From Ulota crispa (lineage: Eukaryota > Streptophyta > Bryopsida > Orthotrichales > Orthotrichaceae), in assembly GCA_963920765.1 (NCBI GenBank), contig OY987244.1:7628501-7692500 (forward strand): DNA of 64,000 nucleotides, in the 5' to 3' direction. Position numbers and translations under genes: made by a program. The stretch's first letter is position 1, and every line of letters starts with the position of its first letter. This document shows positions 3,419 through 61,898 of this stretch, piece by piece. Below the pieces are notes generated by a model that made no database searches, was not told where the DNA came from, and saw only the letters and a program-made list of their open reading frames with translations.

Positions 3419-4009
3419 TTAACTCCTCACCGCCCACGGTAGTTTGGAGTATCTTAGAATTTGCTTGAAAGTGAACAAAATGCCAACATTTTGATCAATC
3501 TTATCAAATTTCTCTGAAACGCAACCGTACAAATTCAAGTAAACATGTTATAGATCACATAGGAAAAGAAATCACAACAATGTCATTTATGGATTGAAAG
3601 ATTATAATGTTTGATCATGAGGGTGTTAAAACTGTGAAAGTGATTTGAAGCCTTTCAATCCTCTTTTTGTATCTCAAACCTAAAATTGAGGGTACCAAAA
3701 AAATATGAGTATGTCAAGTATAATGCTTAACCCCAATCAATTTACGGCTTCTCAAAATCTATTCTATAATTTTTTTATTGAAATTTTAATGTGAATTTTT
3801 CTCCAAGTTCTAGTGTACCTGAAGCTCATGTTCAAGAGCCTTCAACACTAGAAAGTGAAGATTTGCAATGGACACCCTTGCACAAAATCTTGAATGAAAA
3901 AATCACTTTAATTCATTTTCAAAATCAAACTCCTGATGCTGAAACTAGACTTCAATAAGAGTTTAAAAATTATAATAATCACTAAAAAAAATCTTTGGTG
4001 AGGGGTTAA
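3419..4009. mobile_element. TTAA-flanked piggyBac-like MITE (~600-bp subfamily)
   Basis: The element starts TTAACTCCTCACCG and ends CGGTGAGGGGTTAA-like (seen as TTTGGTGAGGGGTTAA), giving TTAA at both ends and a matching inverted terminus. Its interior is clearly homologous, in inverse orientation, to the element at 24666-25299. For example, blocks around GATTATAATGTTTGATCATG and GTGAAAGTGATTTGAAG are shared. No transposase is encoded, so it is non-autonomous. Confidence 0.75.
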
Positions 4010-4577
4010 TGGATAAAAGAGTTGAGACTTAGAATTGCAACTTTGGTTTTCACAGTGGATGCCTCCATGTCCCACACAAATGCTATTCTATGTTGCATTT
4101 TTTAGGCCCAAAAAGTTGAGCTTTGACACTCACATGGGCCTTCACCACGTGAGACGTGAGACATAGTGTGAAGCGTCCCAGTTAAATGCCCAAAAACCTA
4201 TTGGTATTTTAGGACTTTGACATTGATACCAACATGCAAAAGCAAGTCATTTTACCAAAGAGAAGTGTATTGTATGAGCTCCCTACAATGCGAGTTTGTT
4301 AACTGGTTGTTTTGAAATCCAAAAGCGTATTAGGGTACGCTTCTGAGTAGTAGAAAATCCGTTGTATGAGTTTTCATCTGAAAACTCGACATCATGAACG
4401 ATTTGAGGTGAAGAATACCAACAGAAGGGAAAATACATTAAGGATCAAACTGTGGTGATCTGTACATGACCCAGATCAGGGGGGTCATCCGCAAAAAAAT
4501 TATTAGCCCTGGACCAGAACGGCAAAACCTAGATTGATGACTCTAGCATTCATCATCTGATATCTGACGAACTACTT
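4010..4577. other. 3' flank of the phytocyanin gene
   Basis: No separate gene is seen. The part nearest 4577 is expected to be the 3' untranslated region of the minus-strand phytocyanin gene. No polyadenylation signal stands out. Confidence 0.4.
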
Positions 4578-6435
4578 TCAAAACATGAAAAGAGTTGTGA
4601 ATCCAACCGCTGCTGCTGCAAGCGACAGGAATCCCACACCGGCGGAGCTTGCACTGGAATCAACCGGAGCAGGGGCAGCCGCGGGACCAACTCCAGCCAC
4701 AGGGCTGGGTGCCACACCTGGAGCCGCGGTACCTGGAGCTGGTGCAAGCTCCGCTGGTGATGGAACTGGAACGGGAACTGGACCTGGAGCTGGGACTGGA
4801 ACGGCAACTGGTGCCGGAGCAGGGGCTTTGACGGGAACTGGAGCGGGCGGTAGCACCGGAGGCAGGACGGGCGCTACCGCGGGCGCTAGTACCGGAGGCG
4901 CGATGGGCGTCACAGCGGCGCCAACGACGACCTTCATCTTCATGCCCATCTCGCAGTGGCCCATGATGCTGCAGTAGAAGTAGTAGGTCCCGGCCTTGGG
5001 GAGCGTCACAATGTCCGTGCCGGACGTGTACTTCTTGCCTGTGCTCATCAAGCAGCTGGCGTACTCCGTCGCAGTGACGACGGTTGCGTCGTGCTCTGCG
5101 GCAGCGTATGAGAACGCTGCAGGAGCCGCACACAGTCCACGTGTCAGAGTATGGACAGTTTCATGGACTGTACTAAGCTAACAGCGATCTTTATCTGGCT
5201 GAATTTAGCAGGCTTGCTACAAAAAAATTATGCAGCTAAAAAACTCGTGAGATTTACAGTGTTTAATTTGAAAATTTTAGCTTTTTAGCAGTGTTTTTAG
5301 CAACTTGAGCTATAAGTGAAAATCGTAATTGGGATCATTGCTAAGCTTGCGAGCTGAGAGGCTCAGGAGCGTTTTCTAGCTTAATGCCAAGCACTGACCC
5401 CTAATGTGATCTACAAAATTAGCTGAGTAGTTAGAAACAATGCTAACTCACATTTGACTCTGTTTTTACCACTTTAGCTATGAAGATAATTTAGTAGAAG
5501 ATCTGTAGTTGCTGGTTAATTGAAGGCTTCGAAAAAGGAGAAGGAAAGCTGGGTGAGATTCCTCCATCGAAAAGCCAGAGAGATAACGTCTTGAGTGGCT
5601 TGAATACTACACTAGGTTTGGTATTATGATTTCAATTTTATCATAATTCATGTCATCTCTGAGTATTGACTAGGGTAATGCAACACCAAATTTATCATTA
5701 TGGTTCATAGCTGTCTCCGCTTTGTCAAAGGCATATGTAGCACAACCTCGTTCAATCTTTACTCAACATGTATTGCCTAAGGCAAATGTGCTCTTAATTT
5801 TTGTTATTTTAGTTTGTTTAAATTGTAAACAGCATACTGGGTGATATAGCCAGTGTGATGCATATTGGTATCTCAATTTGAGCATTCACCTAGAACAGCG
5901 CATGACACCACATGGAATACCCTTCTACACCGAGCGCGTGTGTCCTATCCTTACTCGTGTTGTGCTCAGGTAGCTAAACACATAGTACATTGAGTGTTTT
6001 TTGTTGTTGTTGTTGTTTACATCTTCACTTGTGCTAGATTGAATGCAGTATTCTACAGCGCGCAAGTCACTGGCTACTTCATTGTTCCAGGACTGGGTTG
6101 ACGTGCACCTACTTCAAGCCATAGCCTACTGCATCCAATACATGGCCTAGATTTTATACTAGGAGCAAAGGAGAGAAAGCATTGAATGGAACTGATGGAA
6201 GGGGGGTGCTGGAGGTGGCCAACTTACTCAAAGTATCACCCGGCATGAACGTTTGCTTGGCAGCCCACTCGTCGTAGTAGCCCATGTCAGCGACAGCCGG
6301 GTAGTCCCACTCTTTAGCACCGCCAACAATATAGTTCGTTGCCTCCACTCCTGTCTGCAGCAGGAGAGTTGCCAGCAAAGCTGGCGCTAGCAATACGAGA
6401 ATGTTGCGGGCATTGCCTCTTCCCTGCATCGCCAT
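4578..6435 (-). CDS. Phytocyanin (uclacyanin/early-nodulin-like), GPI-anchored, AGP-like tail
   Basis: This is a blue-copper-type protein of the cell surface. Two exons are predicted: 6435-6228 and 5116-4578. The 1111-bp intron has a TGA|GTAAGT donor and a TGCAG acceptor, and the frame closes exactly to 248 residues. A signal peptide covers residues 1 to about 32. The plastocyanin-like domain spans about 33-134. All four type-1 copper ligands are visible: His78, Cys118, His123 and Met128 (C-x4-H-x4-M spacing). The usual disulfide pair, Cys91 and Cys124, is also present. Met at the axial position places it with uclacyanins rather than stellacyanins. Residues 136 to about 222 are Pro/Ala/Val-rich, with many AP/VP/SP dipeptides typical of arabinogalactan glycomodules. 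A Ser/Ala-rich stretch and a hydrophobic C-terminus follow, as for a GPI anchor. The ATG at 6435 was chosen because the open frame begins upstream at a TTG; an in-frame ATG at 6429 is equally possible. The exact electron-transfer or adhesion role is unknown. Confidence 0.85.
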
Positions 6436-6447
6436 CGATATATACAA

Positions 6448-10360: not shown

Positions 10361-10643
10361 TATTGAAAACATAGGGAAGATAGAAGAGCAAAGGCACACA
10401 TGGTATACTCAAATGCATAAGATACAAATGGAAGAGATGAGAGGGTCACCCAACCCTCTCATCTATGTACTCTCCCAATCACTCTCCCTTCACCTAACCA
10501 TATGGGATAACCACACTCATGGGCTGATCCTCTCTATGAGGTGCCTCCTACCACATGCTCTCTCTCCAATGCTAAGTACCCCACCTAGCATATCTCCTTT
10601 GGCCTAGAGCAAACTTCTAATGCTCTATTCCAACCTTTCAACA
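10361..10643 (-). repeat. 3' LTR of the copia element
   Basis: This 283-bp direct repeat matches 15587-15869 with four single-base differences and no gaps. The pol frame reads a few codons into it and stops at 10625. Confidence 0.95.
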
Positions 10644-13600
10644 CTCCCACTTTGCGAATGGCCAAAGTCCCCAAGGCCCATGGCTCTTGTCAAACGCTCA
10701 TGTCTATCCCGCGTCAACGCCTTTGTCATCACATCTGCCAACATGTCCTCAGTTGGGCAATACTCTAATGTGATGCTTCCCTTCTCCACCTTCTCCCTCA
10801 CAAAGTGGTGTTGCACCTCGATGTGCTTTGTCCTCGCATGGTGCACCGGGTTCTTTGCAAGAGCTATGGCACCTTGATTGTCACACAAGATCAACGTGCC
10901 CTCCACGTCCTCACACCCCACATCCTCCAAGAGCTGCCTCAACCATATGGCCTCTCTCGTGCAATGGCTCGCCGCCATGTACTCTGCCTCCGTTGTGGAT
11001 AAAGCCACCGTGGGTTGCTTCTTGCTACTCCATGATACCATGCCCTCTCTAAGGCTAAATGCATACCTCGTGGTGGACTTTCTGTCGTTGGCATCGCCAG
11101 CCCAATCTGCATCGCAATACCCCATCAAGCGTATGTGCCTCCCTCCCAATTGCAACTTCACATGAGAAGTGCCCTTGAGGTACCTCATAATCCTCTTCAC
11201 CGCCATCCAATGACTTCATCCCGGCCTCGCCATATGTTGGCTCACCGTGCTAATGGCAAAGGCCAAATCAGCCCTTGTGGCCACCATGGCATACATCAAG
11301 GATCCAACCGCTGATTTGTAAGGCACACTCACCATCCTTGAAGCATCCGCATCATACTCCTCGTTGCTAAGCTTCACCAACTTCACCTTGGTGTCCAATG
11401 GAGTGCCAATGGATTTGCAATCCTCCATGCCAAACCGCTTCAGCACCTCCTCCACATACTTGGTTTGGCTCATGGTGATGGTCCTTGCACCTCGATCTCG
11501 GACAAACTCCACTCCAAGGCAATAGTGCAATTCCCTCAAGTCCGTCATCTTGTACTCCGCTTCCAACTTGGCCTTCAATGTACCCATGGTCTCCACGTTG
11601 CTAGAAAGAATGATCAAGTCATCAACATACACAAGCACAAGCATCACATTGGCTCCCACTTGTGCAAAATATAAGCTATGGTCAGCCACACTCCTCTCAA
11701 AGCCAAAATCCAAAAGACTTGCATCAATCTTTTGGTACCATGCTCTCGATGCTTGCTTCAGCCCGTACTTTGCAAGTTTGCAAACTAAGTGCTCATGACC
11801 ACGTTGCACAAATCCCTTGGGTTGCTCCATGTAGATGTCCTCCTCCAAGTCGCCGTTGAGGAAGGCCATCTTCACATCCATTTGGTGCATTTCCAAGTCC
11901 AATGAAGCTCCAAGGGCCACAACGCACCGTATGGTGGTAAACTTGGCCACGGGAGCAAAGGTCTCGTTGAAGTCCACTCCTTGGACTTGAAAGAACCCCC
12001 TTGCCACCAACCTTGCCTTGTGGCGCACAATCTCCCCCGTGGCATCCCTCTTGGTCTTGAACACCCACTTGCATCCCACGGCCTTGCAAAATGGAGGAAG
12101 GGTGGTCAACTCCCACGTGCCGTTGGCATGGAGGGAGTGGTACTCCTCCTCCATGGCTGCCTCCCACTTGCTTGCATCCCAAGACTCCAAGGCCTCTCCA
12201 AGTGTGGTGGGGTCATGAACAACAGCCACATTAGCATGATCCGAGTTCAAAGATGGTTGAGGGAAGATGTGGTTTTTCCACCACTCCCTCAACAGCTTGC
12301 TTACCCTTGTGGACCGCCGCACACCTCCCACGTGTTGGCTTCCTCCCACTTCAGCTCTTGGAGCAATGTTGTGTGCCTTCTTCTTCTTTGTGATCTTCTT
12401 GGGCTTGGAGCCGTCATCACCTTGGCTTGCACTTGCATCCTCCACAAGGTCACCATCTCCATCTACAAGGTCACCATCTCCATCCTCAAGGGGCTGGTCC
12501 TCATCGTTTCCGTCATCATCATCGCCACCATGCAAAGGCGTTGGAGGTGAATCCACAACAAGGTCACCACTACTCCCACTTGGACCCAACTCCAAGTCTC
12601 CCTGCAACTCTCCTTGCTCACAGAAAGTCACATCACAACATCGAATGATCTTCTTGGACTCCAAACAAATGAGCCTATATGCCTTGGAGCCCTCACAATA
12701 TCCCAAAAACAAACACCTCACCGCCTTTGCATCAAGTTTGCTCCTTGATGCATCTGGGATCTTGGCATATGCAACACACTCAAACACCCTTATGTGAGCT
12801 ACGGAAGGCCTCCTCCCACTCCACGCCTCTTGTGGAGTTTTGCCATCCACCGCACTAGTGGGGCATCGATTGCGAATGTACACCGCGTTGCTCACCGCCT
12901 CGGCCCAATACTCCAACCCAAGCTTTTGGCCATAGAGCATGCTTCTAGTCATCTCCACAATGGTACGATTGGCCCTCTCAACCACTCCATTTTGCTGCGG
13001 CATATGTGGAGTTGAGGTTTGGTGCACAATACCTTGGGTCTTCAAATAGGCCTTGAATTGGTTGGAAGTGTACTCCCCGCCGTTGTCGGACCGCAACACC
13101 TTCATGGAGCACTCCGCCTCCTTCTCCATCAAGGCCTTGAACTCCTTGAAGCGATCAAAACACTCGCTCTTGGCCTTGAGAAGGTACACCCACACCTTTC
13201 TTGAAAGGTCGTCAATGAAGGTTAAAAAATACCTTGCCCCACCCAATGACGTGGTCTTCATGGGGCCACACACATCTGAATGCACAATGCCCAACACCTT
13301 GGTGGCACGTGTGGCACCATCCTTTGGAAAGGAGTGCCGTTGTTGCTTGCCCTCAATGCAACCCTCACAAGCATTGGGCAAGCCATCACCATGAGATTTA
13401 AGAAGGTCAAGGCCACTCACCAAGCTTGGAAGAGCCCTCAAACTTTGTACATTTAGGTGCCCCATGCGTCGATGCCACAAAATCAGCCCATCCTTGGTAG
13501 AAGTGGCAACTTGGGCACTCTCTCCTCCATGCACAACCTTGCACCGCAAAAGATACAAGTTGCCCTCTCGTGTTGCCATGGCTTGGGTGTCTTCATTGGG

Positions 13601-14725
13601 AGACCTCACAATGCACCCAAAACCTCCAAATTGAACATTCAACCCTCCCTCCACTATCTTGCTCACCGAAAGGAGGTTGCTTTGCAACTTGGGCACATAC
13701 AACACATTTTTGAACCGAATGCGTTTGGTGCATCCTTCAATAAGGGTGTCCACCAAAATGGACCCCCTTCCAAGGGCTTGGAGCACCGATTCGTCACCCA
13801 TGAACACCTTCCTTTCCGCAATGGCCTCAAAGGTGTCAAAATGAGCTCTATGGGGTGACATGTGGGTGGTAGCTCCAGAATCCATGATCCAATCACCCCC
13901 GAAGTGCAATGGACCATCATGAGAGGCCATGAACGCATAGTCCTCACCACTCTCTTCTACCTTGGCTTTATTGGCCTTCTCACCCTTGCCACTCTTGCGT
14001 TTATAGCAATTACAAGCAAAGTGGCCCGGTTTGCCACAATGGAAACATAGAAGGGGCTCACCTTGAACCTTGGTTGAATCTCTACCACTCTTGTGGCGAG
14101 CAACCAATGCCGCACTCTCCGTGGCCACCATCTGATGCTCCTTCTTCCTTGTCACTTCATGCATCAACCGCGACGTCACGTAGGTGAGGGTGAGCTCCTT
14201 GATGTCCTTGGTCTCCATGGCCACAATCAAGTTCTCATAAGAAGGTGGCAAGCTCTCCAAAATGGTCATAACAATGTCCCCTTGCGTCACGGGCACATCA
14301 AGGGCCTCAAGTTGGTCCGCAAGAGTCTTCACCTTGTTGATGTGTTGCAAGAGGTCATCGGTCTCTTGCATCTTCATAGTGAAGAACTTGCGCCTCAAGA
14401 ACAATACATTGGCCAAGCTCTTGGTTTCGTGAATGCTGCTTAGGGTCCTCCATGCTTCCGCAGCTCCCTTGCAAGACTTGACGTGTTGGATTTGTGCATC
14501 CACCATGTGAGTGCACAAGATGCGAAACGCCGTCCTCTCACGCTTTTTGAAGGCCGAGATGACCTTGGGGTCACTCTCACTTGAAGGAGGCGTCTCAGTG
14601 CCCTCCACAATGTCCCAAAGATCCTTCTCATCAAGGATCATCTCCATTTTGAACTTGAACAAGGAGAAATTGTCTCCGTTGAACTTGTCCACAACACGGG
14701 GTGTATCACCCTCATAGGTGGCCAT
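10625..14725 (-). CDS. Copia gag-pol polyprotein, interrupted by one in-frame stop
   Basis: The polyprotein of a Ty1/copia element. The ATG at 14725 lies in a good context (GCCATGG). Residues below are counted from nine codons upstream of it. A UBN2-type gag region spans about 20-230. A CCHC zinc knuckle is at 235-248, and the aspartic protease motif DSGATTH at 290-296. The integrase has an HHCC finger (His426, His431, Cys461, Cys464) and catalytic Asp492, Asp555 and Glu591. The acidic linker spans about 715-800. The reverse transcriptase has WVFK at about 895 and YVDD at 1041-1044. RNase H follows with DADW, TEAEY and CDNQ motifs (about 11100-10790). A single TGA at 11218-11216 separates RT from RNase H in the same frame. 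It sits where relatives usually have a basic residue and could be a CGA-to-TGA change. The rest of the frame is open. Without read-through, RNase H would be lost and the copy could not move on its own. Confidence 0.92.
10644..10653 (-). other. Polypurine tract of the copia element
   Basis: On the coding strand AAAGTGGGAG lies directly against the start of the 3' LTR (TGTTGAAA). This is the expected position and composition of the plus-strand primer. It overlaps the last pol codons. Confidence 0.75.
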
Positions 14726-15586
14726 GGCTAAAGTATGCAACTCAACCACCTCTCAAACAAATCTCTAGCTTTCTATGCACACAAAGGGGCTGAAGTATGC
14801 AACTCAACCACCTCCCAAGCAAACCCTAGCTCTTTCCACACACAAGGGACTGAAGTATACAACCCAACCCTCAAAGGAGCACAAGATCTCCCAAAATGTG
14901 AGGTTATCACTCAAACCTCACCCTCAAATTCACTCCTTGCAATTTCAGCCCCCTTTGAGCAAATACTATGCATCCACTTGAGCAAACAACCTCAAGCAAG
15001 GGTAGAAACCAACTAAAGCAAGTACAAACTCACAAATCACCTCTTTGTGCTTCAAACAAGCACTTTGGTGGTGCAACTCCACCCTTAGCAACTCCACACC
15101 TCCAAAAACTTGTGCAACACCAAATGAACCTCCAAATAAGCTTCAAAGTGGATCAATTCCTCCAATATGATAGATCATATCCTCCAACAAGCTCCAAAAA
15201 AGGTCCACACTTTCACAAACTCGAATTTGGTGCTCCACCAAGCTAAATGAGGATCAGCCACTCACCAAGAGGTAAAACAAGATCTCCAAAGACTCCAAAA
15301 GGCATGCAAAGAGAGATGAAGCTCTTCAAAGGTCCTCTCCCACCACAAATGCACCCCAAACCATAAAACAAGCACGAGTAGTCCTCCAAATGCTCCACAA
15401 GATAGGACAAATGCTGAAGTAGCTCAAATGACAAGCAATCTCACTACAAAAACACCCCTAACACTAAAGGGAAGCTAAAGAAGTCATCCAAGTGCACAAG
15501 GTCGAAATCTAAGAGCTGATGTACCTCAAATGTGATCTCCACTCACCATAATGCACCTCCACACTCTAAGTCGTGGGTCCATAACC
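14726..15586 (-). other. 5' leader of the copia element
   Basis: About 860 bp lie between the 5' LTR and the gag ATG. The stretch contains two to three diverged copies of a ~60-bp unit around AAGTATGCAACTCAACCACC (14733, 14794, 14853). No conserved open frame is seen. Confidence 0.6.
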
Positions 15587-16717: not shown

Positions 16718-16967
16718 TTAACCCCTTAAGCGCCCGAGAGACATTATAATGTCTCTCAAAAATTTTGGTCAACTCAATTTTGACTAATATAATCTCATTG
16801 CACGTTTGTTGAAATCATTTTCAATTAAGTTCAACATGATGGAGACGCTTTCCACTAACAATCCATATGGTCCGATCATGTGGATTGTATTTTTCAATCC
16901 ACAAGGGCACTTTGATTGCACACAAGTCAAGCTTTTTTTGTTTCAACTTTGGGCGCTAAAGGGTTAA
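16718..16967. mobile_element. TTAA-flanked piggyBac-like MITE (~250-bp subfamily)
   Basis: It begins TTAACCCCTTAAGCGCCC and ends GGGCGCTAAAGGGTTAA. It is 250 bp, the same length as 53536-53785, with the same GCGCCC terminal motif. It is non-coding. Confidence 0.8.
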
Positions 16968-22132: not shown

Positions 22133-23768
22133 TTACAACATGAGCTTGAAAGTGGGCAAGTGGGGAATCCCGGCTGCAATGAAGAAAGGGAGGAGCTGGG
22201 TGTTGTTCCGCTCAAGGTCATGGTAGAATTCGTACTCGGCGTTATAGTCGTGGATCTCCTTGAGCTCCTCTCTTTGGCTGGAGAAGTAGTGATGCTTGAG
22301 TCCTCTGGCTTTCCCAAACCCATACACGTGGACTTCGTCACATAACCCTAGCGCCATCAGCACGCCTTGCATTCCTGTGGAGTAGTGGAACATCTGATTC
22401 GGGTTGCGCAGGACACTCCACCACCTCGGCTTCATATGCGGACGATTCAGAAACAGTTTCACCGAATACCTGTGAAGAAAAAAATCCAACTCCCAACATG
22501 ACATTGTGTCTGCCCAGTTCAAATTTTGGCCAGGGGGAGAGGGGGGGAAGAAGAAGCAAGTACCATTTCGCAATTCGGTTGCACAGGTTGTCGAAGCGCG
22601 GGTCCGTCACCAGCAGCGGCGCAGGGTGCTCTGAACTGCAGAATGCAATGGGCATGAAGTGCCAGGGCGCACACAGGTACGTGATGATCGGCACCTTGCA
22701 ACCCACCATCCACTTAGAATTAGGGTTAGGGTTAGGGTTAGGTTTGGACTGGGACGACATCTCCAAGAACTCAATATATTGTTCGTGATGTTTTGTTGTA
22801 GGATTACCGTGGGACCGTAAGGATGACACCAGCATTGCTTGCGCTTCGCGCACGCGCGGATGATGTGGCTGTTCATGAAAGAAATGGTTGTAATTTTCCC
22901 CACGAAAGATTCAAACCCCACCGTCCTGGCGTTGTTGATCCGCATCACCATCTCGTGCTGGTCTATGGCTCCCCCGTAGGACGAGTTCAGCAGAATGCCG
23001 CTGTTTCCCACCACCGCGCACGTGCGGTACCGCTTTAGGGTTTCTCTCTTCGGCACACGATGGCTCTCGTCAATGGGCCGCTTCACGTACTGCACAAGGT
23101 TTTGCATGACTCGGGGCTCAAACCGCCGGTTTTCCACCCATTTCTTCAACAGCACTCGCATCTTGGGCCAAAACAGTCCCCACATGTTGGCGTTGTAGAA
23201 GATTTCAAGCTGCCAGCCTGCCAGCTTCTTCCGTGTCGCAGGCATGAGCACCATGTGGCTGTTGTACCTGCCCTGTGAGTATTGCACCACGTCAATTGGC
23301 TTCCTTTGCTTGCTGCGCACATGTCGGGGCAGTTATTCTGTGTTACACCTCGAACATGCCATCTTTTCACATGCGGTTCATTTTGTCCAAACCCTGTAAT
23401 GCTTTGTACCTGAGATATGGCGCCTTCTTCTCCAGCTGCATGTACTTGTTGTTATAGCTTCCTTGACGACCAGTTCGGCCAGGATAGATGTCCTCCATGG
23501 CATGAACGGAATCCCTTTCGTTTCCCAGGAGTTGTACAATTTGGTGCTCCAACTCAGTAGAGAGATAGTCCACGTCGCTGTAGTCTATCTTGGATTCTTC
23601 AGAGTCGTCCGCTGTTGAGTTCAAATGGTAAGAAGGGTTCCTCGTACACAAACTAGGTAAAAATGTCAACAGGGAGACGCCCATTGAATATGATACCATG
23701 GTGGCGGTGAAGATGGTCAGCGCAGTGGAAATCGTCAACAACATCAAAAAAGCTCGTGATTGCAGCAT
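22133..23768 (-). CDS. GALT29A-like: GT29 sialyltransferase-like glycosyltransferase, GALT29A type
   Basis: A Golgi glycosyltransferase of CAZy family GT29. In plants, relatives of this type add beta-1,6-galactose to arabinogalactan side chains. Four exons are predicted: 23768-23410, 23267-22808, 22694-22564 and 22469-22133. All junctions are GT-AG and all phases close, giving 428 residues. The introns are 142, 113 and 94 bp. A signal anchor at about residues 6-37 gives a type II topology. The L-sialylmotif begins near residue 203 (CAVVGNSG then an INNAR block). The S motif is at about 345-367 (HYSTGMQ then LCDEV). The VS motif H-x4-E is at His390 and Glu395. The CHPYG and LLVTDPRF blocks are characteristic of the plant GALT29A-like branch rather than SIA1/SIA2. 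The start at 23768 has the context ACCACCATG. The frame continues upstream only through non-ATG codons. The acceptor of exon 3 (TTGCAAG) is the weakest junction. True sialyl transfer is not expected in plants. Confidence 0.85.
22719..22742 (+). repeat. Short TTAGGG-type array in a GT29 intron
   Basis: The plus strand carries about three and a half units of TTAGGG within the second intron of the GT29 gene. This is the vertebrate-type rather than the common plant TTTAGGG telomere unit. It is too short to indicate a telomere fusion. Confidence 0.8.
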
Positions 23769-23920
23769 GGTGGTGAAGTCTGATCTCTCTTTTGCAAAGG
23801 AATCTCCAGGCCCTTGCGCAAGGAATGATAAACTTTTGTAAATCTCAGTGTTCAAACTTTGGCTAACGTGATCATCACCTGCACGTTGACAGGTGTGTGT
23901 ATGTATGGACGAGCTGTGTA

Positions 23921-24184
23921 TCACTTAACGTCGTCGCTGGTGGCCGTGCGAACCTCGAATGCGCAGTCACATCGGATCACAAGCTGGAGCAAATTGACCT
24001 CTGAGAGATGGTGCCAGTCATCTGACAAGCGAATGAGGTTTTTCTTTCGCTTGTAGACACGGTAGTTGTAGTCATTGCAGGGGATCCGTCGCCAGCCCAG
24101 GGGGAAGATCTTCTCTTCCATGGCCTCAAATGACTTGATCTCTTGAGTCGCTCGGCATATGAGCATGGGCTTGCCAATCTCCAT
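23921..24184 (-). CDS. FPF1-like: FPF1-like (flowering-promoting-factor-1-like) protein, possibly N-terminally incomplete
   Basis: An 87-codon frame starts at an ATG at 24184. Its pattern matches the C-terminal two thirds of the small FPF1 family: a strand ending in QEI, then the LGW-x-R motif (residues 29-33), a basic K/R patch with Leu-Ile-x-Leu (about 46-52), and a final V-x8-FEVR block (about residues 67-78). FPF1 proteins are plant proteins of about 110 residues that affect growth and flowering time. The usual N-terminal 20-25 residues (a V/W-V/F and G-V-x-RL segment) are missing. An in-frame TGA lies four codons upstream, so either an upstream exon exists or this is a short version. The stop is only 152 bp from the GT29 start codon on the same strand. 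The two could be close tandem genes, or this frame could lie in the GT29 transcript. Confidence 0.55.
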   Translation of the reverse strand: MEIGKPMLICRATQEIKSFEAMEEKIFPLGWRRIPCNDYNYRVYKRKKNLIRLSDDWHHLSEVNLLQLVIRCDCAFEVRTATSDDVK

Positions 24185-24665: not shown

Positions 24666-25299
24666 TTAACCCCAAAGCGTCATTGGGAACAGAAACTGTC
24701 CTCGACCGATTTTTGAGGTTAAATTTAACCTGACCAAATTACTATTTTGAAAAATCTTTTTGAAGTTTAGTTTTAAATTCAACAATCTGATTTTGTAAAT
24801 GATTAATTATGATTTTTCTATTCAAGATTTTGTGCATGGGTGTTCATTGCAATCTTGACTTTATGTAGTGTTGAGGGCTCTTGGGAATGAGCCTCAAATA
24901 CACTAGATCTTTGAGAAAAAATCACATTAAAAATTAATTTAAAAAATTGTAGAGTAGATTTTGAGAACTTATAAATTGATTGGGGTTATACATGTAAGGC
25001 TCTTTAACCTCATATTTTTTTGGTGACCAACTTTTTTGATTTGACATGTGAAAAGACAATTGAAAGACTTCAAATCACTTTCACAATTTTAACACACTCA
25101 TGATCAAACATTATAATCTTCCAATTTGTAAGAGATATTGTTGTGTTTTCTTTTCTAATGTGATCTCTAACATGTCTAATTTGATTCTATACAATTACAA
25201 TTCAAAAAGAATTGATACAACTTATCAAAATATTGGCTTTTAGTTCAATTAGAGAAAATTCCAAGAAGCCCTGGAAATGCAGTGTCACTTTGGGGTTAA
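24666..25299. mobile_element. TTAA-flanked piggyBac-like MITE (~600-bp subfamily)
   Basis: It starts TTAACCCCAAAGCG and ends CACTTTGGGGTTAA. It is 634 bp. The interior aligns, inverted, with 3419-4009 over most of its length with moderate divergence. It lies about 480 bp upstream of the FPF1-like frame. Confidence 0.8.
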
Positions 25300-28893: not shown

Positions 28894-28972
28894 TTAACCC
28901 CTAAGTGCCCAAGCAAACCGTTTTGGTCCACAATCCTGTCTTATTTTAAAAAGCTAGGCACTCAAGGGTTAA
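28894..28972. mobile_element. TTAA-flanked piggyBac-like mini-element (79 bp)
   Basis: It begins TTAACCCCTAAGTGCCC and ends GGCACTCAAGGGTTAA. At 79 bp it is little more than two inverted ends, the same length as 37492-37570. Confidence 0.75.
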
Positions 28973-30860: not shown

Positions 30861-31710
30861 TTAACTTCTAAATGCCGACTAGTCACCATGACTAGCCCAT
30901 CTACTGTGACTCTACAATGCTCTTCAATGGTGTGGCAAGTGCCTACCTATTATAGTATTGTTTCTAAAAGTTGCAATACTCAATAGTGCATGGTGCCCTC
31001 ATGAAAATTGCAAGAAGGGCAACATGGGACCTAACATTAGCAAAGTTTTGAGCCCTCCAAGAGCCCCCCAAAGTTTGACAAACCAAGCTATTAATTGGCT
31101 AGGCAAGCCTGAGTACAAGAAAAGGGCACTCATACCCATTGCTACCTTGTATGAAAGACCTAAGCCACATGCACAACCCAAAACAATAAAAAAAAAAGGG
31201 CATTATACTCATAAAATATGTAAATGTACTCACTACTCACTATCCAAGTACTTCACTCATCTATTCAAGTAGAGTAAAGTAGAATTTATGATCCTATTGT
31301 ACATTTGTATCCATAGTTTTTGTCCAATAGGGATAACTATATCATTATGTTTTCATGATTGCATTGAGTTCAAAGGGTGAGTGGAAATAAGGGATTAGTG
31401 ATTTGTTTGTTGAAAGTACATGCCTTGGGACCCTTTCTGGTGTTTTGGAAGGGGCTCTTAGAGGGCTCAAAACTTTGCTAATGCATTGTGTCTCTAAATC
31501 TTTTCACAAGTTAGGTTGCTTCAAAATATGAGTGTATTTGATGAGATTGTTTTCTACCTTCCATGTTGGACCATTTATTTATGATCACTTTTGAAAAAAA
31601 ATCAGATGAAAAACGATTTTTTTTTTTTTTTTTTTTTTTTTTGCTATTGTATAGAATATTTTTTTACAGCCAGAGGACAAAAAACGTCCGGCTCTGCATT
31701 TAGGGGTTAA
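30861..31710. mobile_element. TTAA-flanked piggyBac-like MITE carrying a nested insertion
   Basis: The left end is TTAACTTCTAAATGCC and the right end is GCATTTAGGGGTTAA. It is homologous, in inverse orientation, to 43166-43529 (shared CATGGTGCCCTCATGAAA and the CAGATGAAAAA block). Removing the nested element at 31035-31483 leaves about 400 bp, close to the 364 bp of the other copy. A T run of over 20 lies near 31617-31642. Confidence 0.75.
31035..31483. mobile_element. Nested MITE with CATTAGCAAAG termini
   Basis: It is bounded by 21-bp perfect inverted repeats (CATTAGCAAAGTTTTGAGCC and its inverse), extended by imperfect pairing through GAGCCCC. It interrupts the TTAA element around it, because the uninterrupted homologue at 43166-43529 lacks it. 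449 bp, no coding. Confidence 0.75.
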
Positions 31711-34665: not shown

Positions 34666-37600
34666 TCACGGCATCCACAAGATGCCGAGACCTTCGAGAC
34701 CGACGTTATCAGGATCTTCGGAACTGAACTCGTCTGAAAATGAATCGATTCCACCACCCAGGGCCATGGAGAAGCTAAGCACTTGGTAAGTCACAACTGG
34801 GATGGTGTCCACTGCCATCCCCTCTGCTAGATCGGCTGGCTCTTCTGAGCGCTGCACGAGCTGAACGATCATGTGTGGTTCAATGCCAGAACCGAGGCCA
34901 GCTTGGCCTGGCATATCTTCGAACAGCCTTTCTTCGCGCTGTAAACCATCAAACCGTAAAGTCAAGTACTCATCGAATATCAAGATTTTCATGTTTTGGA
35001 ACAAACAAAAATACCTAGTTGTGCGAAACAACACCGTTCTAACTTGTGAAAGTGCCTACATTTTGTTCACTTGCAGTTTCTACGGTACGTCTGCCTCTAA
35101 GGTAGTATCGAAATCAACTAAACAAGCTACACTTTGCACCAAGGTTCTACAATGGATTCCCTGTGGGGAATCTAAAATGCAATTTGCTTCGAGTCTCACG
35201 TTTCCCTACGAATCTCAACATTTGTCACCTGTAAAACGTTCCCTTTTAAGCAAGTGGTCTGCACAAATATCTTATTTTGAAGCTCAGTAGTGAAAACTTG
35301 GACTCATACTAGAAACCAAAAATGAGACCCTTGTGTGTCGTGACGATTCAGTTTTGATTATTCACAGGATTCATATTATTTTCACCCGTCCACCATTAGG
35401 TGAAAAAGAAATTCTACCTTGGAGGGTACGTGATTTAGTACATACTTATAAGGTCTTATGGCCTATAATTCTCCTCTAAGATTGCATTAACTCGAACAGT
35501 ATAACTTTCAAACAATTCATGACTCATCCTTATGTTTGCTTGTCTCTTTGGATTGTTACTTCTTTCGCATCACCTCCACTGGAATTGTTACTTCAATAAA
35601 GTGCAAGGGTCCCATTACCAAGTTCTAGAGGTTTGATGATATGAAAATGAAGGCAGTTGAGGTTATTATGTATGAGTTGTAATTAAGCTTGTTCATAGCG
35701 AATCAGAAATTGCAATCTATACAAAATACAATGCAGTTTAGAAGTATGGATTGGTAGAACTACATGGATTACAACAATTAAGTAGAATACAACAAGCGAT
35801 TCATTCTTGTATAATAAGAAGCTGAGGTGTAGTACACTAACCACAGGAGCTTCGGATGTGCTCAAAGCTGGTCTCCCGTTTGGAGAGGACAGCGCCTCAA
35901 GCTCATCCTTTGTATCTTTCGCCTCATTATGTTGTTGGCTGCTGCTACTGCTGCTGCTGAGCAATCTGAAAATCAAATTCAGGATTAGCAACATGTAACC
36001 AAATTATAAACATGAAAGGGCCATTCAGGTTCTCCGGAAAGGGCATACTCCGTATAAGGTCTCTCCTACTCTACCCGAGCTCTGATGTGAGACCAGAAGA
36101 GTGGGCTCCCTGAATTGACATCCATGGTATGACAGTAATGACAGTCAGGTTTCTTTGATATGGCCATCTCTAAAGTGACATTTTGAACATTTTGGAATGG
36201 CCTCCACACTTGTCAGTCTCACCTTTGTCACATGTATCACAATTTCAGTCTATGTAAAAAAAAAATCTTAAAACACAAGGCAGTCAGACTAAAGAGGACA
36301 GGATGTAGACCGACGGTATTCCATATGTCATTTAATGAACCTATATATAAACATTACATGCAATTATTAACAAGACTTATTCGATGGATGCATGCAAAGA
36401 TTTGCTCAAGATTATGCATGAAGACAAAAGCCAGGGTTCAGGAAATAACTACATATAAACCACGACTCCGTGATTGATGTGCTACACAAAATCTCCAAAG
36501 TGCAGACAAATAAACTTGAGGTGAGGAGAGATCAGGATTGCGGATGATGCATAAAGCACCCATTATCAACCCACCTTAAGTATTAACATATCAACCCTGC
36601 CAAAATTTTGACACCTCAAAATGTAAGCATGAATGGCAAACAGGGCTAGGTAATCTTATCAGTCAGAGAAGCTAGAGCACATGAGTTTACCATTGTATGT
36701 ACTCTTTGTGTTCTTTTCAACATGTATTGTGCTTATGGGGGACCCTAAGATCAATTTTCAGTGCTCTCCTCAAATCGAAAACTTTTGAAATGAATAGCCT
36801 TCGTCAAAAGCTCTGAACTTTGATTCCAACAAGCCTTTTCTTATACTTGCAAAGAAACACATGTAGTTCATTTGTCCCATTTCCAGTTGGTTTCTGTTTA
36901 AGTACAATTAGTGACAATTATGAACACTCAAAACTTCTTTGAACTGGCTGATTGACGTAACAATACAGTAGCTTTACAGGTAGGAATTCCATGTGTACTG
37001 CTATTAAGCAACTAATGATGACTAGCTAATTTTAAAAAGTACAAAATAATACCCATTATGCCATATGTAAACCCAAAGCATGGTCACAGATATTGCGACA
37101 TTCCCAGGAATCTCAAACGATATGGATGTGACATCACGAACTGTTTCGGAAGGTGGCACATGATCGATGTGCTAGTATAAAATGCCAAGAACGAACCTAG
37201 TGTAGGAAAAATTACAAATATACGACTTTTCAACAAAGTGAATAGCCAGAGGGAAGCCCATATTGTTCTCAAAAAGGGCTCTAAGATCGCTAGGTACGAA
37301 TGAGGATCTACATTGGGAAACCAAAGTGTACTGAGAATCAGAATAGTATCCTAACTTTCACAAACCTAACACAAAGTGAGCTGTGTCTGCAAAATGGGTT
37401 GAAACAATAAATTTCGACCAATGATCTCTCATGAGTCATGACCATTTGAAATGGGAGGGACTTTGGGATAACAATTTCTGCATATTGTGTTTTAACCCCT
37501 AAATGCTCAAGGCACCAAATTTTGGTGTTCTGCAGACCAAAATTTGATGCCTTGGGCATTTAGGGGTTAGATTACTTGACTGTTAGACACCATCCAAGTA

Positions 37601-41765: not shown

Positions 41766-41865
41766 ATGCTTTATTTGTATAATATTTGATTTTTGTGAAC
41801 AATGGTCAATTTTCAAAAGTCTTCAACACTACCACTAATATTTTTCCTTATCTATGTTACATTAA

Positions 41866-42152
41866 ATAGTGCATTTAGGTTATTTAAACAATTAGGTTGT
41901 CTTATCCAAAAAAGTTACCTCATGACTCATCATTTAGTCACTTGGACATGCATGCAACTCTCTAAATTTTACGGTTTCACATGGTTTATGGCTTGATAAA
42001 CGCTAGTTTGTTTTTTTTTTGCAATGTTGTTGTTGTTGCCAAATCCTTGTTGCTAAAATATGTTTATTGCAATGATTATTGATGAAAAATATTGTAGTAT
42101 TAGTAAATGCTTATATAGTGTAAAATGTCAAAAAATTAGTGTGAGGCAATCG
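41866..42152. mobile_element. Inverted-repeat element, uninterrupted homologue of 47736-48983
   Basis: It shares GCATTTAGGTT, AACAATTAGGTTG, CATGCAACTCTCTAAA and GAAAAATATTGTAG in order with 47736-47975, then AATAGTGT-like DNA with 48933 onward. It lacks the 957-bp TTAA element present there. The corresponding site is TTAT at 42111-42114. Confidence 0.65.
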
Positions 42153-43165: not shown

Positions 43166-43529
43166 TTAACCCCTAAACGTCGAGGAGGATTGTCCTCCGG
43201 CTCTGGAAAAAGATTCTCTGATTCAGGAAAAAGGTTTTTTTTCATCTGATTTTTTTCAAAAGTGACTATAAACACATGGTCCATCATGGAAGGTAAAAAT
43301 TTATCTTATGAGATGTATTCATATTTTTTTGTAACTCAAATTGTGATAAGATTCAGAAACATGGTGTTAGGTCCCAAGCTACCCTTATTGCAACTTTCAT
43401 GAGGGCACCATGCACTATTGACTTTTGCAATTTTATAAAACAAAATTTTAATGGGTGGCACATGCCAAACAACTGCAGAAACCATTGTAGAGGACAGGCA
43501 CGACCACCCATTTGACGCTTAAAGGTTAA
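43166..43529. mobile_element. TTAA-flanked piggyBac-like MITE (~360-bp subfamily)
   Basis: It starts TTAACCCCTAAACGTC and ends GACGCTTAAAGGTTAA. 364 bp. It is the uninterrupted homologue of 30861-31710 in inverse orientation. Confidence 0.8.
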
Positions 43530-43939: not shown

Positions 43940-44866
43940 TTAACCCCTAAAGCCCTGGGGGTTTTGTTTGTCAAAAGATATTTAAAAATGCCATTTCTAT
44001 TGCAAAGAGTAAAAAAATTTGAAAATTGGTCTTTATAATATTTAGCCATAGGATCTTGTACTAGACTACTATAAGAATGTGGGGAAAAAATTCAAAAACT
44101 TTGACCACCTAAATTGCAAGATTTTTGCATTTAAAGTGTAAACAACAAACATTTTTGCACCTTGCATGATTAGATTATTTGACTCTGAACTTTTTTTACT
44201 TAAATTTTTTGTACCGCAGAGTTTTGAGGTTTATTATTTTATGGTGGGAAATTGAGTTGAAAATCTTTGGAACAAAATCAAAACAAAAAATACTTAATTT
44301 TCATTCTTTAAAAAAACATTAGGTGGAAGAAGGTATGAGATGAACAAAAACCTAAATTGTTAATAACCTTGAAATGGAATTGAAACGCAATAATCCTAGT
44401 GGTGAGATTGTTCTAGAAAGCAAACTTCACCCTCTCCAACAATTTTTTTTGAAAAATTGTAAAACTTGCATTCAAAAATGAAGTTTATAAGTTATTTTTT
44501 CAAGAAGATGCTTGAATTGCCCAAAATTCAAGATTGTCCATAACTTTCTCATAACTAGTGCAAATGGAATGAATGAAAGCTTCAAATGTAAACAAAACTA
44601 TAAACTATGAGAAGAACTTTTTTTTTTTTTTTAATTCAAGTTTTTGTATAATAAAATTGTTGCCAATCTTCATAAATTTGTGCTTATCTAGGCATCATTT
44701 TTGCTTTTAGGCATAGATTGGAATAAAAATGTGATTCCTCAAAAGTTAATGTGTTTTCCTATTTTTTTAAAAAGTTTCAAAAAATTAGGACAAAAATTGA
44801 GGTTGTAGGTACCTGCCCAAAATCTCATTTGTCCCTTGAGGGGACACTCAGGGATTTAGGGGTTAA
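43940..44866. mobile_element. TTAA-flanked piggyBac-like MITE (~940-bp subfamily)
   Basis: It starts TTAACCCCTAAAGCCC and ends GGGATTTAGGGGTTAA. 927 bp. The interior shares GGATCTTGT-C-TAGA-type blocks with the inverse of 47976-48932. No open frame of useful length is present. Confidence 0.8.
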
Positions 44867-47345: not shown

Positions 47346-47735
47346 TTACAATAGTTGGTTTCAACGAATAGCCATGCAAAAATGGATAGCTCTATCCAAA
47401 TTTTTCCTTTGCCAGTATGCATTGGAGGGTACGTGTCATTAGAACCTTCCAACCAAGGCAAAATCAAAAGAGCTTCCCTACTTAGGGCGTCTCCACCTGT
47501 CCCCAAAGGCCAAAGATTCCATTATTAGAGAACTTAAAGTTTCTTGTTTCTAGTGTTAACCACTTCTTCCCCACTTCTTCCCCACGTCTTTCCTTATCCG
47601 AGAGTCAGGGGAGAAAGTTTAGCTTCACCAGCTGAAATCCGGCATTTCCAGAAAATCCGGCATTTTCAGTTTCAACCCAGATTTTGACTAACATGCACCT
47701 GTTATTTCCTGAAAAATTTCTCGATTTCTACATTG

Positions 47736-48983
47736 AATATTGCATTTAGGTTGCCTTGACAATTAGGTTGCCTTATCTTAGAAAATTACTTCATGATTCA
47801 TTGTTTGGCCACTTGAAAGGCACATGCAACTCTCTAAACTATAGGTATTCACATGATTTATGACATGGTCGCCGCTATAAAAAAAAAATTGCACCATAAT
47901 TGTTATTGCTATGACCTTAAAAATTTGTTTACAAAAGTAATTACTAGTGAAAAATATTGTAGGAGCAATAAATATTTAACCCCAAAAGGCCCAAGTGGCC
48001 CCTTGAGGGCCAAGTGGGGTTTCATGCATGTACTTACAACTAAACTACTTTGTGTGATTTTTTGAAACTTATATGGAAGATGGGGAATTAAAAGATCTAC
48101 GTGGGCATCTAATTTTTTTTTGTCATTTTGACATTTATTGAAGATGTTATGCATGAATAACTTAAAAATAGGGGAGAAAGGGGCAGCCCAAAAAACATTG
48201 TATTTAAAAAAAATAAAAAATAAAAAATGGTTCTTTAGATTTCTTTATAAGTGGGAACCTTTGAATCATTTAGTTATGATTGATGAGATGAAAGTTATGA
48301 GAAGTTTTAGTTTGCAGGAAAGTATGGGACTTCCAAACCTCTGTTCCTTTTGCCCCTTGTAAAATTTGGTGCTTTATTTTTTTGAGCTCTTTGTGTATTT
48401 ATTTTTTTGACTTTTTTTGTCCCAAGTCATAGTAGACTGAGATTCCTTGGTTTTCACCATTTGGATCAAAGTAATTCAGATTTCTGAATTTTACATAAAT
48501 CCTCCAATTTTACCTATTGTATATGTAAATTTCATGGCCTTACAGCATTGCAAGATTTTACAAAGTATGATTCACACCTCCAATTCATTTGAAGATTCTC
48601 CTGCACTTACCTAACTTGGTCTTCTACATGGGAAAAATAAACCTCAACTTTGCGTACAACATTTTTTTTTATATAGGAGTGGTCAAGGGCTTCTAAAATT
48701 TTTGGGAAGCAAAAAAAAAACTCTTTTTTTCACTTTAGATGTCAATATTTCACTCCTCTACATCTAAAATGAGCTGATTTGTTTCCCTCAAGTACCTCTC
48801 ATAATCTAGGACAAGATCCTAAGGTTGGATTTTAAAGAAAAAACAACTTTTCCTACCTTTCAATTCATTCTCCCAAAAGTGACAGTTTTGAGTGACTTTC
48901 ACAGAAAAAGGATTTGGACCTTTAGGGGTTAAATAGTGTGAAATGTTGGGAAATTAGTTTGAGGCAACCTAAACGCAATATTT
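47736..48983. mobile_element. Inverted-repeat element hosting a TTAA insertion
   Basis: The left end AATATTGCATTTAGGTTGCC and the right end GGCAACCTAAACGCAATATT are inverse. Without the nested element at 47976-48932 it would be about 290 bp, the size of its homologue at 41866-42152. Confidence 0.7.
47976..48932. mobile_element. TTAA-flanked piggyBac-like MITE nested in another element
   Basis: It starts TTAACCCCAAAAGGCCC and ends GGACCTTTAGGGGTTAA. 957 bp. Host DNA on both sides (GAAAAATATTGTAG before, AATAGTGTGAAATG after) is continuous in the homologue at 42078-42130, where a single TTAT stands at the insertion point. This shows insertion at a four-base TTAA-type target with its duplication. 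Confidence 0.85.
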
Positions 48984-51157: not shown

Positions 51158-51169
51158 TAAGGAGACTGT

Positions 51170-53535: not shown

Positions 53536-53785
53536 TTAACCCCTGAGCGCTCAGTCCAAATTCATGGAGTGTTATACCTCATTGTAAATAATTTGGCACC
53601 CCAAGTTCAAATACAACATTTGGAAGAGTAAGCCATTGCTATTGGACGAGACTTAATGTCCGTATATGTATGAAAAATTTGGTAAGTTCTTCGTTGCATG
53701 GATCAAAATACTATAATGGTCAAAGACAACAAACCGTCAAATATGGAGAGGCCACATTTCGGCTTGTGGGGCGCTCAGGGGTTAA
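53536..53785. mobile_element. TTAA-flanked piggyBac-like MITE (~250-bp subfamily)
   Basis: It starts TTAACCCCTGAGCGCTC and ends GGGCGCTCAGGGGTTAA. This is the best-preserved inverted pair of the family in the window. It is exactly 250 bp, as is 16718-16967. Confidence 0.85.
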
Positions 53786-54609: not shown

Positions 54610-54612
54610 TAA

Positions 54613-60600: not shown

Positions 60601-60641
60601 ATTGGGACTCTGCGAAGTGGCGACGGTGAGCTCCTACTACA
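54613..60641. other. Less repetitive region without a supportable gene
   Basis: Composition is more balanced than elsewhere and few MITEs are seen. Many 60-100 codon frames occur on both strands (for example minus 56607-56338, minus 59874-59581 and minus 60474-60163), but none shows a recognised domain or chains with its neighbours through convincing splice sites. Segments near 55940-56600 and 58500-59800 share short blocks (CGTTCCAGCACAGTAA; GCAAGATC with GATCCG), suggesting a diverged internal duplication. A poly-A run lies at about 60085-60106. Confidence 0.4.
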
Positions 60642-60822
60642 TTAAGGGCCGGATTCCATCGAGGACTTGGACGTCCAGGTCCTTGAGGTCCAGCGAGTTT
60701 CTATTAGCAATTTCTTCCTCCTGGATGACTGATCGGACCTCCAGGTCTCCGGTCCGTAGAGATCGGCTTTACAGGACCTGGAGGGCCTGGAGGTACAGGC
60801 CCTCAATGGAATCTGGTCCTAA
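60642..60822. mobile_element. Small inverted-repeat element (181 bp)
   Basis: The left TTAAGGGCCGGATTCCATCG pairs with the inverse of the right end, TTAGGACCAGATTCCATTGA. Inner GGTCCAG/CCAGG blocks also pair. MITE-like, non-coding. Confidence 0.65.
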
Positions 60823-60880
60823 CATAGAGCCTGTCCCTTGTCTTGATTGTGTGGGACCCTATTTCATGGCACTGTTTTTC

Positions 60881-61117
60881 TTAACCACTGAGCGTCTAGA
60901 GTTATTTTTGGATTTAGGAGAAAATGGGGGTTTAATGGTCACCATAGCTTGGAAAATTACATCCAAAAAAAGTGACCATAGGATTTGAAAAAGGACTACC
61001 TTCTCTGTTGATGGGGACCAACCATGGCTGTTTTCACCGTAAAAATTAAGAAAAAAAATAAGATGAAGTTGTGGGCCTCAACGACAGGATCCTATTGCTG
61101 GGGCACTCAGGGGTTAA
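60881..61117. mobile_element. TTAA-flanked piggyBac-like MITE (237 bp)
   Basis: It starts TTAACCACTGAGCGTC and ends GGCACTCAGGGGTTAA. It is of the ~250-bp class. Its right TTAA is shared with the next element. Confidence 0.75.
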
Positions 61118-61898
61118 CCCTTGAGCGCCCATGTCATTTTTACCAAAATCAAGGTTTTTGGAAACCAACAACTTTGATGCATTGTATCTCAATCAGTTGG
61201 ATGATTCACAAAAAGTGACCATTGAAAATAGTGGAACACCTACTTAGAAAATGGCTTGCAAATTTTGGGAACAATTGATAGTGGAAGATGGGAGATTATA
61301 ACATTTGATCAAACAACATGTGATGGCAAAATCTCATTTCTTGGCAAGTAGTTGCTAGTGGATGACTTTTATGAAATTCTATAGGTCTTTGATTCATCTC
61401 AAATTTTTTGAGTAGCAACTAGCAAGTTAGAGTAGATGTGAATGCACACACTTTGCAAATTCTTGAAGATTTTTGTTTCTTGTATGTTAAGTTTTAGGGC
61501 TTCAATTTGCTATTGCACAAAAAACAATGACCACCACAGGCGGTGAGGATTGCCCTTATAAGGGTTTAGAACATGCTTGAACCCTTGTTGGGGAATTTCC
61601 CACTACTACAAAACACATGCAAAGAAGCTGCAAGGGACATTCACCAATTGCAGCTTGTAAAACTTTGCTTGCTACCACACCATGTTATCCTGTAATTATG
61701 GTGTTTCACCTAATCAAATCTCTCATAGCACTTGTACAACATTTGGCTTTCCTTGCCATGACTCCATTGGCATGGAAAACTTGAATGCCTTCATAAGTAT
61801 TGTTTATAGCAAGATCAAAAAGTTAGATCCGATGCCTCAAACAAGGCTTTGAAGTTATGGAAGGCCAAATTTGAGGCGCTCCAGTGCTCAAGGGTTAA
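61114..61898. mobile_element. TTAA-flanked piggyBac-like MITE (785 bp)
   Basis: It starts TTAACCCTTGAGCGCCC and ends GTGCTCAAGGGTTAA. It begins at the same TTAA that closes 60881-61117, so the two sit head to tail with no spacer. No transposase frame. Confidence 0.75.

Follow-up and report, generated by a model that had tools for sequence, protein, structure and literature searches.

TTAA-bounded elements of the window

The window (the whole stretch of 64,000 nucleotides analysed here) contains twelve complete elements that start with TTAAC and finish in its inverse, as the sequence-only reading had reported; the bases that follow vary slightly. The terminal inverted repeats start CCC(C/T), with single-base variants in several ends, and the single flaw among the twelve was the right end of 37492-37570, which reads CTAACCCC. 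The elements are short (79-957 bp), non-coding and high-copy, the properties by which MITEs are recognised, and those with verified ends make up ~9% of the window.

The element at 3419-4009 has CACCGCCC-type ends and has lost ~60 bp next to the terminal repeat on the right. Its 39 scored non-self copies showed 91-93% identity, and the intact right end of the family is present in the relatives L039, L041, L043, L044 and L045. The element at 24666-25299 has a core akin to that of 3419 (77.7% over 534 bp) and different ends; ends resembling its left end recurred among the palindrome-pattern matches listed (see below). The elements at 30861-31710 and 43166-43529 are also akin to each other (79% over 258 bp once a nested insert is left out). 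Both relationships had been proposed from the sequence, and they were borne out by the comparison; the third proposed pair, 43940-44866 and 47976-48932, was rejected, as their common sequence is only ~97 terminal bases (74%).

We also rejected 30861-31710 as a single 850-bp element, as it is interrupted by a nested, unrelated 449-bp MITE (~31035-31483). When it was searched with its flanks, the 39 scored non-self copies all lay within query positions 257-739, so that the search had matched the insert, and it and its 4,885 candidates are therefore uninformative on the outer element.

The element at 16718-16967 carries GCGCCC-type ends (39 scored non-self copies, 88-91%), while 53536-53785 and 61114-61898 both have GAGCGCCC-type ends. 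The 79-bp element at 37492-37570 is almost one palindrome (88% over 77 bp). Two further elements were assigned from their ends only and are treated as candidates: the 79-bp 28894-28972, whose left end fits the strict terminal pattern, and 60881-61117, whose right end fits it and whose right TTAA is common to the next element. A thirteenth element, claimed to begin at 63994, did not hold up, since the continuing sequence is without the second motif ascribed to these ends and there is no convincing partner end within ~1 kb; it stays an unconfirmed candidate.

The strict terminal pattern, TTAACCCCTNARNGCCC, matched the genome at 10,044 places, and its reversed control matched once. Bare TTAACCC occurred 24 times in the window, exceeding 100 first-order Markov sequences (mean 9.8, maximum 19), yet it was no commoner than the reversed string (23 occurrences), and this count was therefore discarded as evidence.

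Copies in the genome and the target site

Searches of the 274.8 Mb assembly found relatives outside their own position for 10 of the 12 window elements; 28894 and 60881 gave only self-matches among the fetched loci compared. Six family searches returned 467 to 4,521 first-look candidates each, which are candidates and not verified copies. For 43940, 53536 and 3419 the queries carried 100-base flanks, and 39 non-self copies were scored for each. Homology running past the TTAA had been named in advance as the observation that would tell against these boundaries, and we observed that none of the 117 scored non-self copies extended more than 20 bases beyond the TTAA. With 43940, all 39 reached at most 20 bases beyond the left and at most 10 beyond the right TTAA, and 36 of them stopped within 10 bases of both. 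All 39 copies of 53536 had their limits within 14 bases of both TTAA ends. The copies of 3419 reached at most 10 bases beyond the left end (39/39), and their right limit fell 14-20 bases inside the element. The cause is the ~60-bp deletion near the right end of the window copy. In searches without flanks, 29 of 39 copies of 16718 attained both ends within 3 bases, as did 22 of the 39 copies of 61114 (80-82% identity); most of the remaining 61114 copies ended 17-57 bases short at the right.

An uninterrupted site was found for one of the long, transposase-bearing elements described below (L030), which is inserted in a repeat. The 1,378 first-look candidates yielded 38 other scored loci that contain the left flank, and in 30 of these it continues directly into the right flank. 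The one uninterrupted site that was read, at the further locus L004, has a single TTAA where L030 carries the element. Among 10 non-artefact empty-site comparisons in the fetched loci, an intact TTAA was found only for L030/L004, the other nine having a different four-base word. In a table of 20 rows, the L029 row was rejected as an artefact of adjacent similar ends. As TTAA is its own inverse, a duplicated TTAA looks the same in sequence as a duplicated TA beside an element with ACCC ends, and the identity of the transposase decides between them. The sites appear to carry a TTAA target duplication, a reading that shares this ambiguity with TA.

Transposase genes and the terminal palindrome

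The piggyBac transposase family (PF13843) gave 120 matches in the genome (best E 1.3e-73; 116 of 528 first-look candidates scored) and 0 matches in 14 control genomes. No scored match fell in the window, in line with the earlier statement that it holds no transposase. The autonomous partner predicted to lie elsewhere was found, since the same genome has piggyBac-family transposase genes between facing TTAACCC-type ends. In six loci the transposase lies inside such ends spaced 5.0-5.7 kb. Facing ends could be paired in 7 of the 20 fetched 10-kb transposase loci, including L034, whose left end is doubtful owing to a 43940-like piece inside the locus; L034 was therefore used for its right end only. 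The other 13 had no end pair within 3 kb. Two of the elements, L027 and L030, match each other over their whole length at 89-93% identity, with no similarity continuing beyond the element ends.

The L020 frame matched the piggyBac transposase structure PDB 6x67 (E 3.7e-20, 75.5 bits) and piggyBat, PDB 9c0f (E 6.7e-17). The complete catalytic Asp triad (DDD) was present in 14 of the 22 aligned loci (22 of the 25 distinct transposase loci were taken in and 3 omitted). These transposases are deeply split, with a median pairwise identity of 36%. Read-through translations of several loci show, by eye, C-terminal Cys/His clusters, which suggests that the proteins have a C-terminal cysteine-rich zinc domain.

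The links between the MITEs and these loci are short. Both ends of 37492 are like the left end of the transposase-bearing L035 element (37 bp at 86%), and the right 57 bp of 47976 resemble the right end of L034 (77%). Only these two elements are tied to a transposase-bearing locus beyond ~20 bp; most window elements had no longer match at an end to the seven paired-end loci.

An imperfect palindrome of 17 bp occupies bp 17-33 of one end in many families, and its arms vary between families. The best palindrome (>=6/8 pairs) was centred on bp 25 in 27 of 266 terminal-like ends, where 1.5 would be expected from shuffles, and these belong to 13 sequence clusters with different arms. The peak is lower when each cluster is given one representative (11 of 177 at bp 25, 7 at bp 24 and at most 4 elsewhere), and a secondary peak (10 at bp 29) came mainly from one family's other end. 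A palindrome pattern with the spacer free from 6 to 30 gave 700 matches against 0, and the spacing centred at bp 25 was common to 92 of the 100 matches listed. The palindrome was also present in 5 of the 6 well-bounded transposase elements, there always upstream of the transposase.

Only some of the window elements show it clearly. It scores 8/8 in 16718, centred at bp 25.5 after the terminal repeat on the left, 7/8 at the right end of 43940 and 6/8 at the left end of 47976, both at bp 17-33. At least 5 of the 12 are without a score of 6 or more at bp 25-25.5: 3419, 53536 and 61114 score at most 5 and 24666 scores 5, while 28894, 30861, 43166 and 60881 peak off-centre, at 22-24.5. In insect piggyBac, bp 17-33 at one end are the binding site for a dimer of the cysteine-rich domain (PMC7351741). 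The moss palindrome is probably a site for the cysteine-rich domain of the transposase as well.

Origin, age and meaning of the elements

Taken together, these elements are very probably non-autonomous members of the piggyBac superfamily in a moss nuclear genome, moved by the transposases of the 5.0-5.7 kb partners. The superfamily assignment made from the sequence is supported by homology that stops near TTAA and by transposases between ends of matching type, and piggyBac relatives, short and long, are spread widely through the moss genome together with many decayed transposase genes. The 5.0-5.7 kb elements would have carried genes for DDD transposases that had a cysteine-rich domain at the C-terminus, and each transposase lineage would have recognised a terminal repeat of ~16 bp and the palindrome at one end. 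Such a transposase would have excised the DNA and inserted it at a TTAA site, with duplication of the TTAA. Short sequences retaining those ends were probably mobilised in trans and rose to high copy number.

Other superfamilies, too, can have TTAA ends, and the inseparability of TTAA and TA duplications leaves room for another superfamily with a TTAA/TA-like target (e.g. Kolobok), the piggyBac transposases being mere neighbours. We consider this highly improbable, since seven loci have PF13843 flanked by facing TTAACCC-type ends, one element is present in two same-ended copies, 37492 matches the end of such a locus, and the palindrome lies in the same register as in insect piggyBac (PMC7351741). 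That register, together with its recurrence in 13 clusters with different arms, both in MITEs and in transposase elements, also makes it unlikely that the palindrome was left over when MITEs arose as hairpins, or serves as a promoter element, instead of being a transposase-binding site, although the near-palindromic 37492 would fit a hairpin origin. Since piggyBac has mainly been described in animals, we also considered that the sequences might be contaminants, or recently transferred and limited to a few contigs, and we give this almost no credence: transposase matches were found on contigs C1 to C11, the transposases differ deeply, and even the best scored copies are 7-20% diverged. The same contigs bear light-harvesting genes closest to moss chains in the PDB, which agrees with the land-plant host claimed earlier and narrows it to a moss.

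The transposases that were read are decayed, and with the 7-20% divergence of the best scored copies the invasion therefore looks old; the families are probably silent now. Some families could still be mobile, driven by an intact transposase among those unread, given that 116 of 528 candidates were scored and 22 frames aligned, and that 10 of the 120 matches, in 8 places, are stop-free within the match. However, the four of these places that were read to the C-terminus (L019, L020, L023 and L024) are all broken outside the match, and the best non-self identity was 95% for 37492 (over ~80 bp) and at most 93% in the longer families searched, so that we regard continued mobility as improbable. 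Across the alignments of three families, C-to-T changes amounted to 6/56 and 3/40 at CHG, 3/48 and 9/56 at CG, and 2.4-4.6% at CHH; these small counts are only suggestive of cytosine-context decay.

The elements share with piggyBac of Trichoplusia ni the TTAA target, the CCC-start ends, the DDD transposase with a probable C-terminal cysteine-rich domain, and an end in which 16 bp precede a palindrome lying within bp 17-33 (PMC7351741). They differ from it in the moss host, the 5.0-5.7 kb transposase-bearing elements, the many MITEs, the palindrome arms that vary among families and a transposase that is only distantly similar. The piggyBat element of Myotis lucifugus has the same transposase family in a bat host. 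Animal piggyBac MITEs are likewise short, TTAA-bounded and without coding capacity; here they occur in a land plant, alongside several deeply split transposase lineages. The description of piggyBac as little described in land plants was fair, but 'absent' would be wrong. A 2015 survey places PiggyBac among the superfamilies present in all groups studied, land plants included (PMC4438587), and the repeat table of the fern Ceratopteris has the same superfamily label with 1,230 copies (122 kb in total, 0.00% of the assembly; PMC6890710), as against verified ends and ~9% of the window in the moss. Among the matches listed from titles and abstract openings of the open-licence literature, we found no announcement of moss piggyBac elements; the moss genome paper that came up most often (PMC10619864) has the word 'piggybacking'. 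The superfamily is thus a known one, and it is the host and the scale that are unusual.

It is quite possible, and we propose it tentatively, that the moss genome has long been an arena of piggyBac evolution, in which the palindrome arms of several deeply split transposase lineages diverged while position and symmetry stayed fixed, forming a changing lock that separates the MITEs of each lineage. If so, with perhaps tens of thousands of copies (density being judged from the window and the pattern counts), piggyBac would rank among the main shapers of the moss genome, and this genome would hold a ready-made collection of piggyBac end specificities. piggyBac is a main genome engineering tool, and the transposase structures we found are of insect and bat elements. 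The moss families show which end features are kept (~16 bp and the bp 17-33 palindrome at one end) and which are varied (the arm sequences), and they suggest that the piggyBac superfamily is able to fill a land plant genome.

TTAA-bounded elements and their copies in the genome

We observed that the twelve complete elements described in the sequence-only reading as TTAA-bounded and CCC-ended were all present (12/12), at their coordinates and with ends as described; the right TTAA of 37492 (elements are named by start coordinate) is one base off. Together they total 6,000 bp, or 9.4% of the window, and about 449 bp of 30861-31710 is a foreign MITE nested inside. This nested MITE (31035-31483) has inverted ends of about 34 bp, and its 39 scored non-self copies are 84-91% identical. 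Another copy, at locus L051 elsewhere in the genome, itself hosts a 43940-type element. A further dispersed repeat lies at 41857-41985 and 47729-47855, and its copy at locus L005 hosts a 61114-type element.

Within the window, the bare string TTAACCC was not commoner than its reverse. The fuller terminal motif TTAACCCCTNARNGCCC (the strict pattern) gave 10,044 matches in the whole 274.8-Mb genome versus 1 for its reversed control. Relatives were found for 10 of the 12 window elements; 28894 and 60881 are candidates by their ends, and each has one end that fits the strict pattern.

Homology running past the TTAA, the test proposed in the earlier reading, was looked for using elements with 100-base flanks, scoring the 40 best candidates per search, self included. 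These flank searches showed copies ending at or near the TTAA. For 43940 (best 39 non-self copies of 3,770 candidates), homology extended at most 20 bases beyond the left TTAA and at most 10 beyond the right, with 36 of the 39 ending within 10 bases of both. For 53536, all 39 scored non-self copies (best of 525 candidates) ended within 14 bases of both TTAAs, and all listed non-self matches of 37492 (query 51-129) were confined to query 40-138. The 39 scored non-self copies of 3419 (best of 4,521 candidates) all ran at most 10 bases beyond the left TTAA, and all stopped 14-20 bases inside the right one. Five of seven fetched relatives, those printed far enough, showed about 60 bp extra and then a TTAA-bounded terminal repeat, indicating that the window copy of 3419 is internally deleted. 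In searches without flanks, both ends were reached to within 3 bases by 22 of 39 scored copies for 61114 and by 29 of 39 for 16718. The printed flanks of fetched copies appear mutually unrelated.

Transposase genes, transposase-bearing elements and empty sites

The piggyBac DDE domain (PF13843) had at least 120 matches in the genome, all above the cut-off (116 of 528 candidates scored), and none in 14 control genomes. The frame at locus L020 matched the catalytic region of the piggyBac transposase 6x67 (E 3.7e-20) and of piggyBat 9c0f (E 6.7e-17) in the PDB. We aligned 22 of 25 distinct loci, leaving out L024, L025 and L026. The first catalytic aspartate was present in 21 of these, the second in 16 and the third in 19, with all three in 14. 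The frames sort into five or six groups, and their pairwise identities have a median of 36%. Read-through translations of several loci, judged by eye, carry a C-terminal Cys/His cluster resembling a cysteine-rich domain. Stops interrupt 110 of the 120 matches, and stop-free matches occur at 8 places, of which the four read to the C-terminus were all broken outside the match; the sampled transposase genes are thus decayed. Two pairs of transposase matches with equal scores lie on opposite strands, at distances of about 15 kb (C2:36765124/36779670) and 20 kb (C7:18203169/18223004), which suggests inverted segmental duplications.

Among 20 10-kb loci chosen around transposases, seven had facing TTAACCC-type ends 5.0-6.0 kb apart; in the remaining 13, one end or none was found within 3 kb. 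As the left end at L034 is doubtful, six well-bounded elements of 5.0-5.7 kb remain, bearing out the earlier expectation of a piggyBac transposase between matching termini elsewhere in the genome. One element is represented twice, at L027 and L030; its two copies share 89-93% identity and terminate at the same points. Both ends of 37492 matched the 37 bp at the terminus of the L035 element (86%, E 9e-8), and 47976 matched the final 57 bp at the L034 locus (77%, E 1.4e-6). The other window elements had only about 20 bp or less in common with the seven end-paired loci at their ends, and 43940 additionally has an internal piece of 92 bp in common with L034. The latter contains a tandem array of 52-bp period at about 4456-5055, counted within the excerpted element.

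The strongest empty-site case is the 5,308-bp transposase-bearing element at L030, inserted within a repeat. When this element and its flanks were searched, the best 40 of 1,378 candidates were self, L027 and 38 other loci with the left flank. By alignment rather than in letters, the right flank directly follows the left at 30 of the 38, so that the insertion site is uninterrupted there; at the other eight, also by alignment, the flanks are 204-884 bp apart (six loci) or no right flank is seen (two). A further locus, L004, read in letters, carries a single TTAA at that junction. In nine other comparisons among the loci examined, elements stood at single positions in diverged repeats and the four-base word was not TTAA, as expected if insertion selects copies carrying TTAA, which is not proof.

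A palindrome at bp 17-33 of the ends

PMC7351741 describes the first 16 bp of each insect piggyBac end as held symmetrically, and a C-terminal domain dimer as binding, at just one of the two ends, a palindrome within bp 17-33. Some of the moss ends resemble those described there in having a palindrome that spans bp 17-33, with its centre at bp 25. This feature was absent from the sequence-only reading. Taking the best palindrome per end with at least 6 of 8 pairs, we found the centre at bp 25 in 27 of 266 terminal-like ends versus about 1.5 in shuffles; the next peak, 10 at bp 29, came mostly from the other end of a single family. By sequence, the 27 ends fall into 13 clusters. When the whole set of ends was clustered and each cluster represented once, the centre lay at bp 25 in 11 of 177 and at bp 24 in 7, and no other position exceeded 4. 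Searched across the genome, a pattern of one arm pair with a free spacer of 6 to 30 had 700 matches versus 0 for the control. Of 100 matches listed, all on contig C1, 92 had the single spacing that places the centre at bp 25; they come from terminal repeats of many kinds, and members of the same family are not independent observations.

Window elements with a clear palindrome are 16718 (8 of 8, centre 25.5), 37492 and 43940 (7 of 8, centre 25) and 47976 (6 of 8, centre 25). Element 30861 scored 7 of 8 at centre 23, while 28894, 43166 and 60881 scored 6 of 8 at centres 22-24.5, attainable by chance. Element 24666 (5 of 8, centre 25) may carry an indel in this region; 3419, 53536 and 61114 scored at most 5, and 3419 has lost the stretch. 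Of the six well-bounded elements with a transposase, five scored 6-8 of 8 at bp 25, at the end upstream of the transposase.

Host, abundance and transposition

Three of four light-harvesting genes were searched in the PDB, and their best matches were chains of 7xqp, 8htu, 7ksq and 6l35, which we take to be structures of photosystem I from the moss Physcomitrium patens. L061 matched chain 9 of 7xqp and 8htu, presumably the moss protein Lhcb9, at about 405 bits, versus 347 for the next chain and about 205 for ordinary LHCII. By these similarities, the light-harvesting genes point to a moss host. A chlorophyll a/b-binding gene cluster at C4:21391382-21771811 has eight matches of nearly equal score. 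The window also holds a Copia-type LTR retrotransposon (10625-14749), whose long polyprotein frame stays open for 1,177 aa. On the minus strand lie exons from a gene of glycosyltransferase family 29 (sialyltransferase-like; 22133-23924) and the end of a gene with a plastocyanin-like domain and a proline-rich tail (4578-5051).

The strict pattern occurs at 36.5 per Mb genome-wide and has three matches in the window, catching 3 of 24 element ends. Extrapolated from the window rather than counted, the genome would hold roughly 40,000 elements; as three window matches underlie the scaling, this figure is uncertain severalfold. The best scored copies are diverged by 7-20%, and most members of each family must have diverged by at least that much.

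The piggyBac superfamily itself is already known; in the open-licence papers searched we saw no report of a moss host, of this scale, or of a conserved palindrome register with varying arms. We infer activity, palindrome binding and silencing. The sequence evidence supports the ordinary reading, in which piggyBac transposases would transpose by cut-and-paste into TTAA and would mobilise the MITEs in trans.
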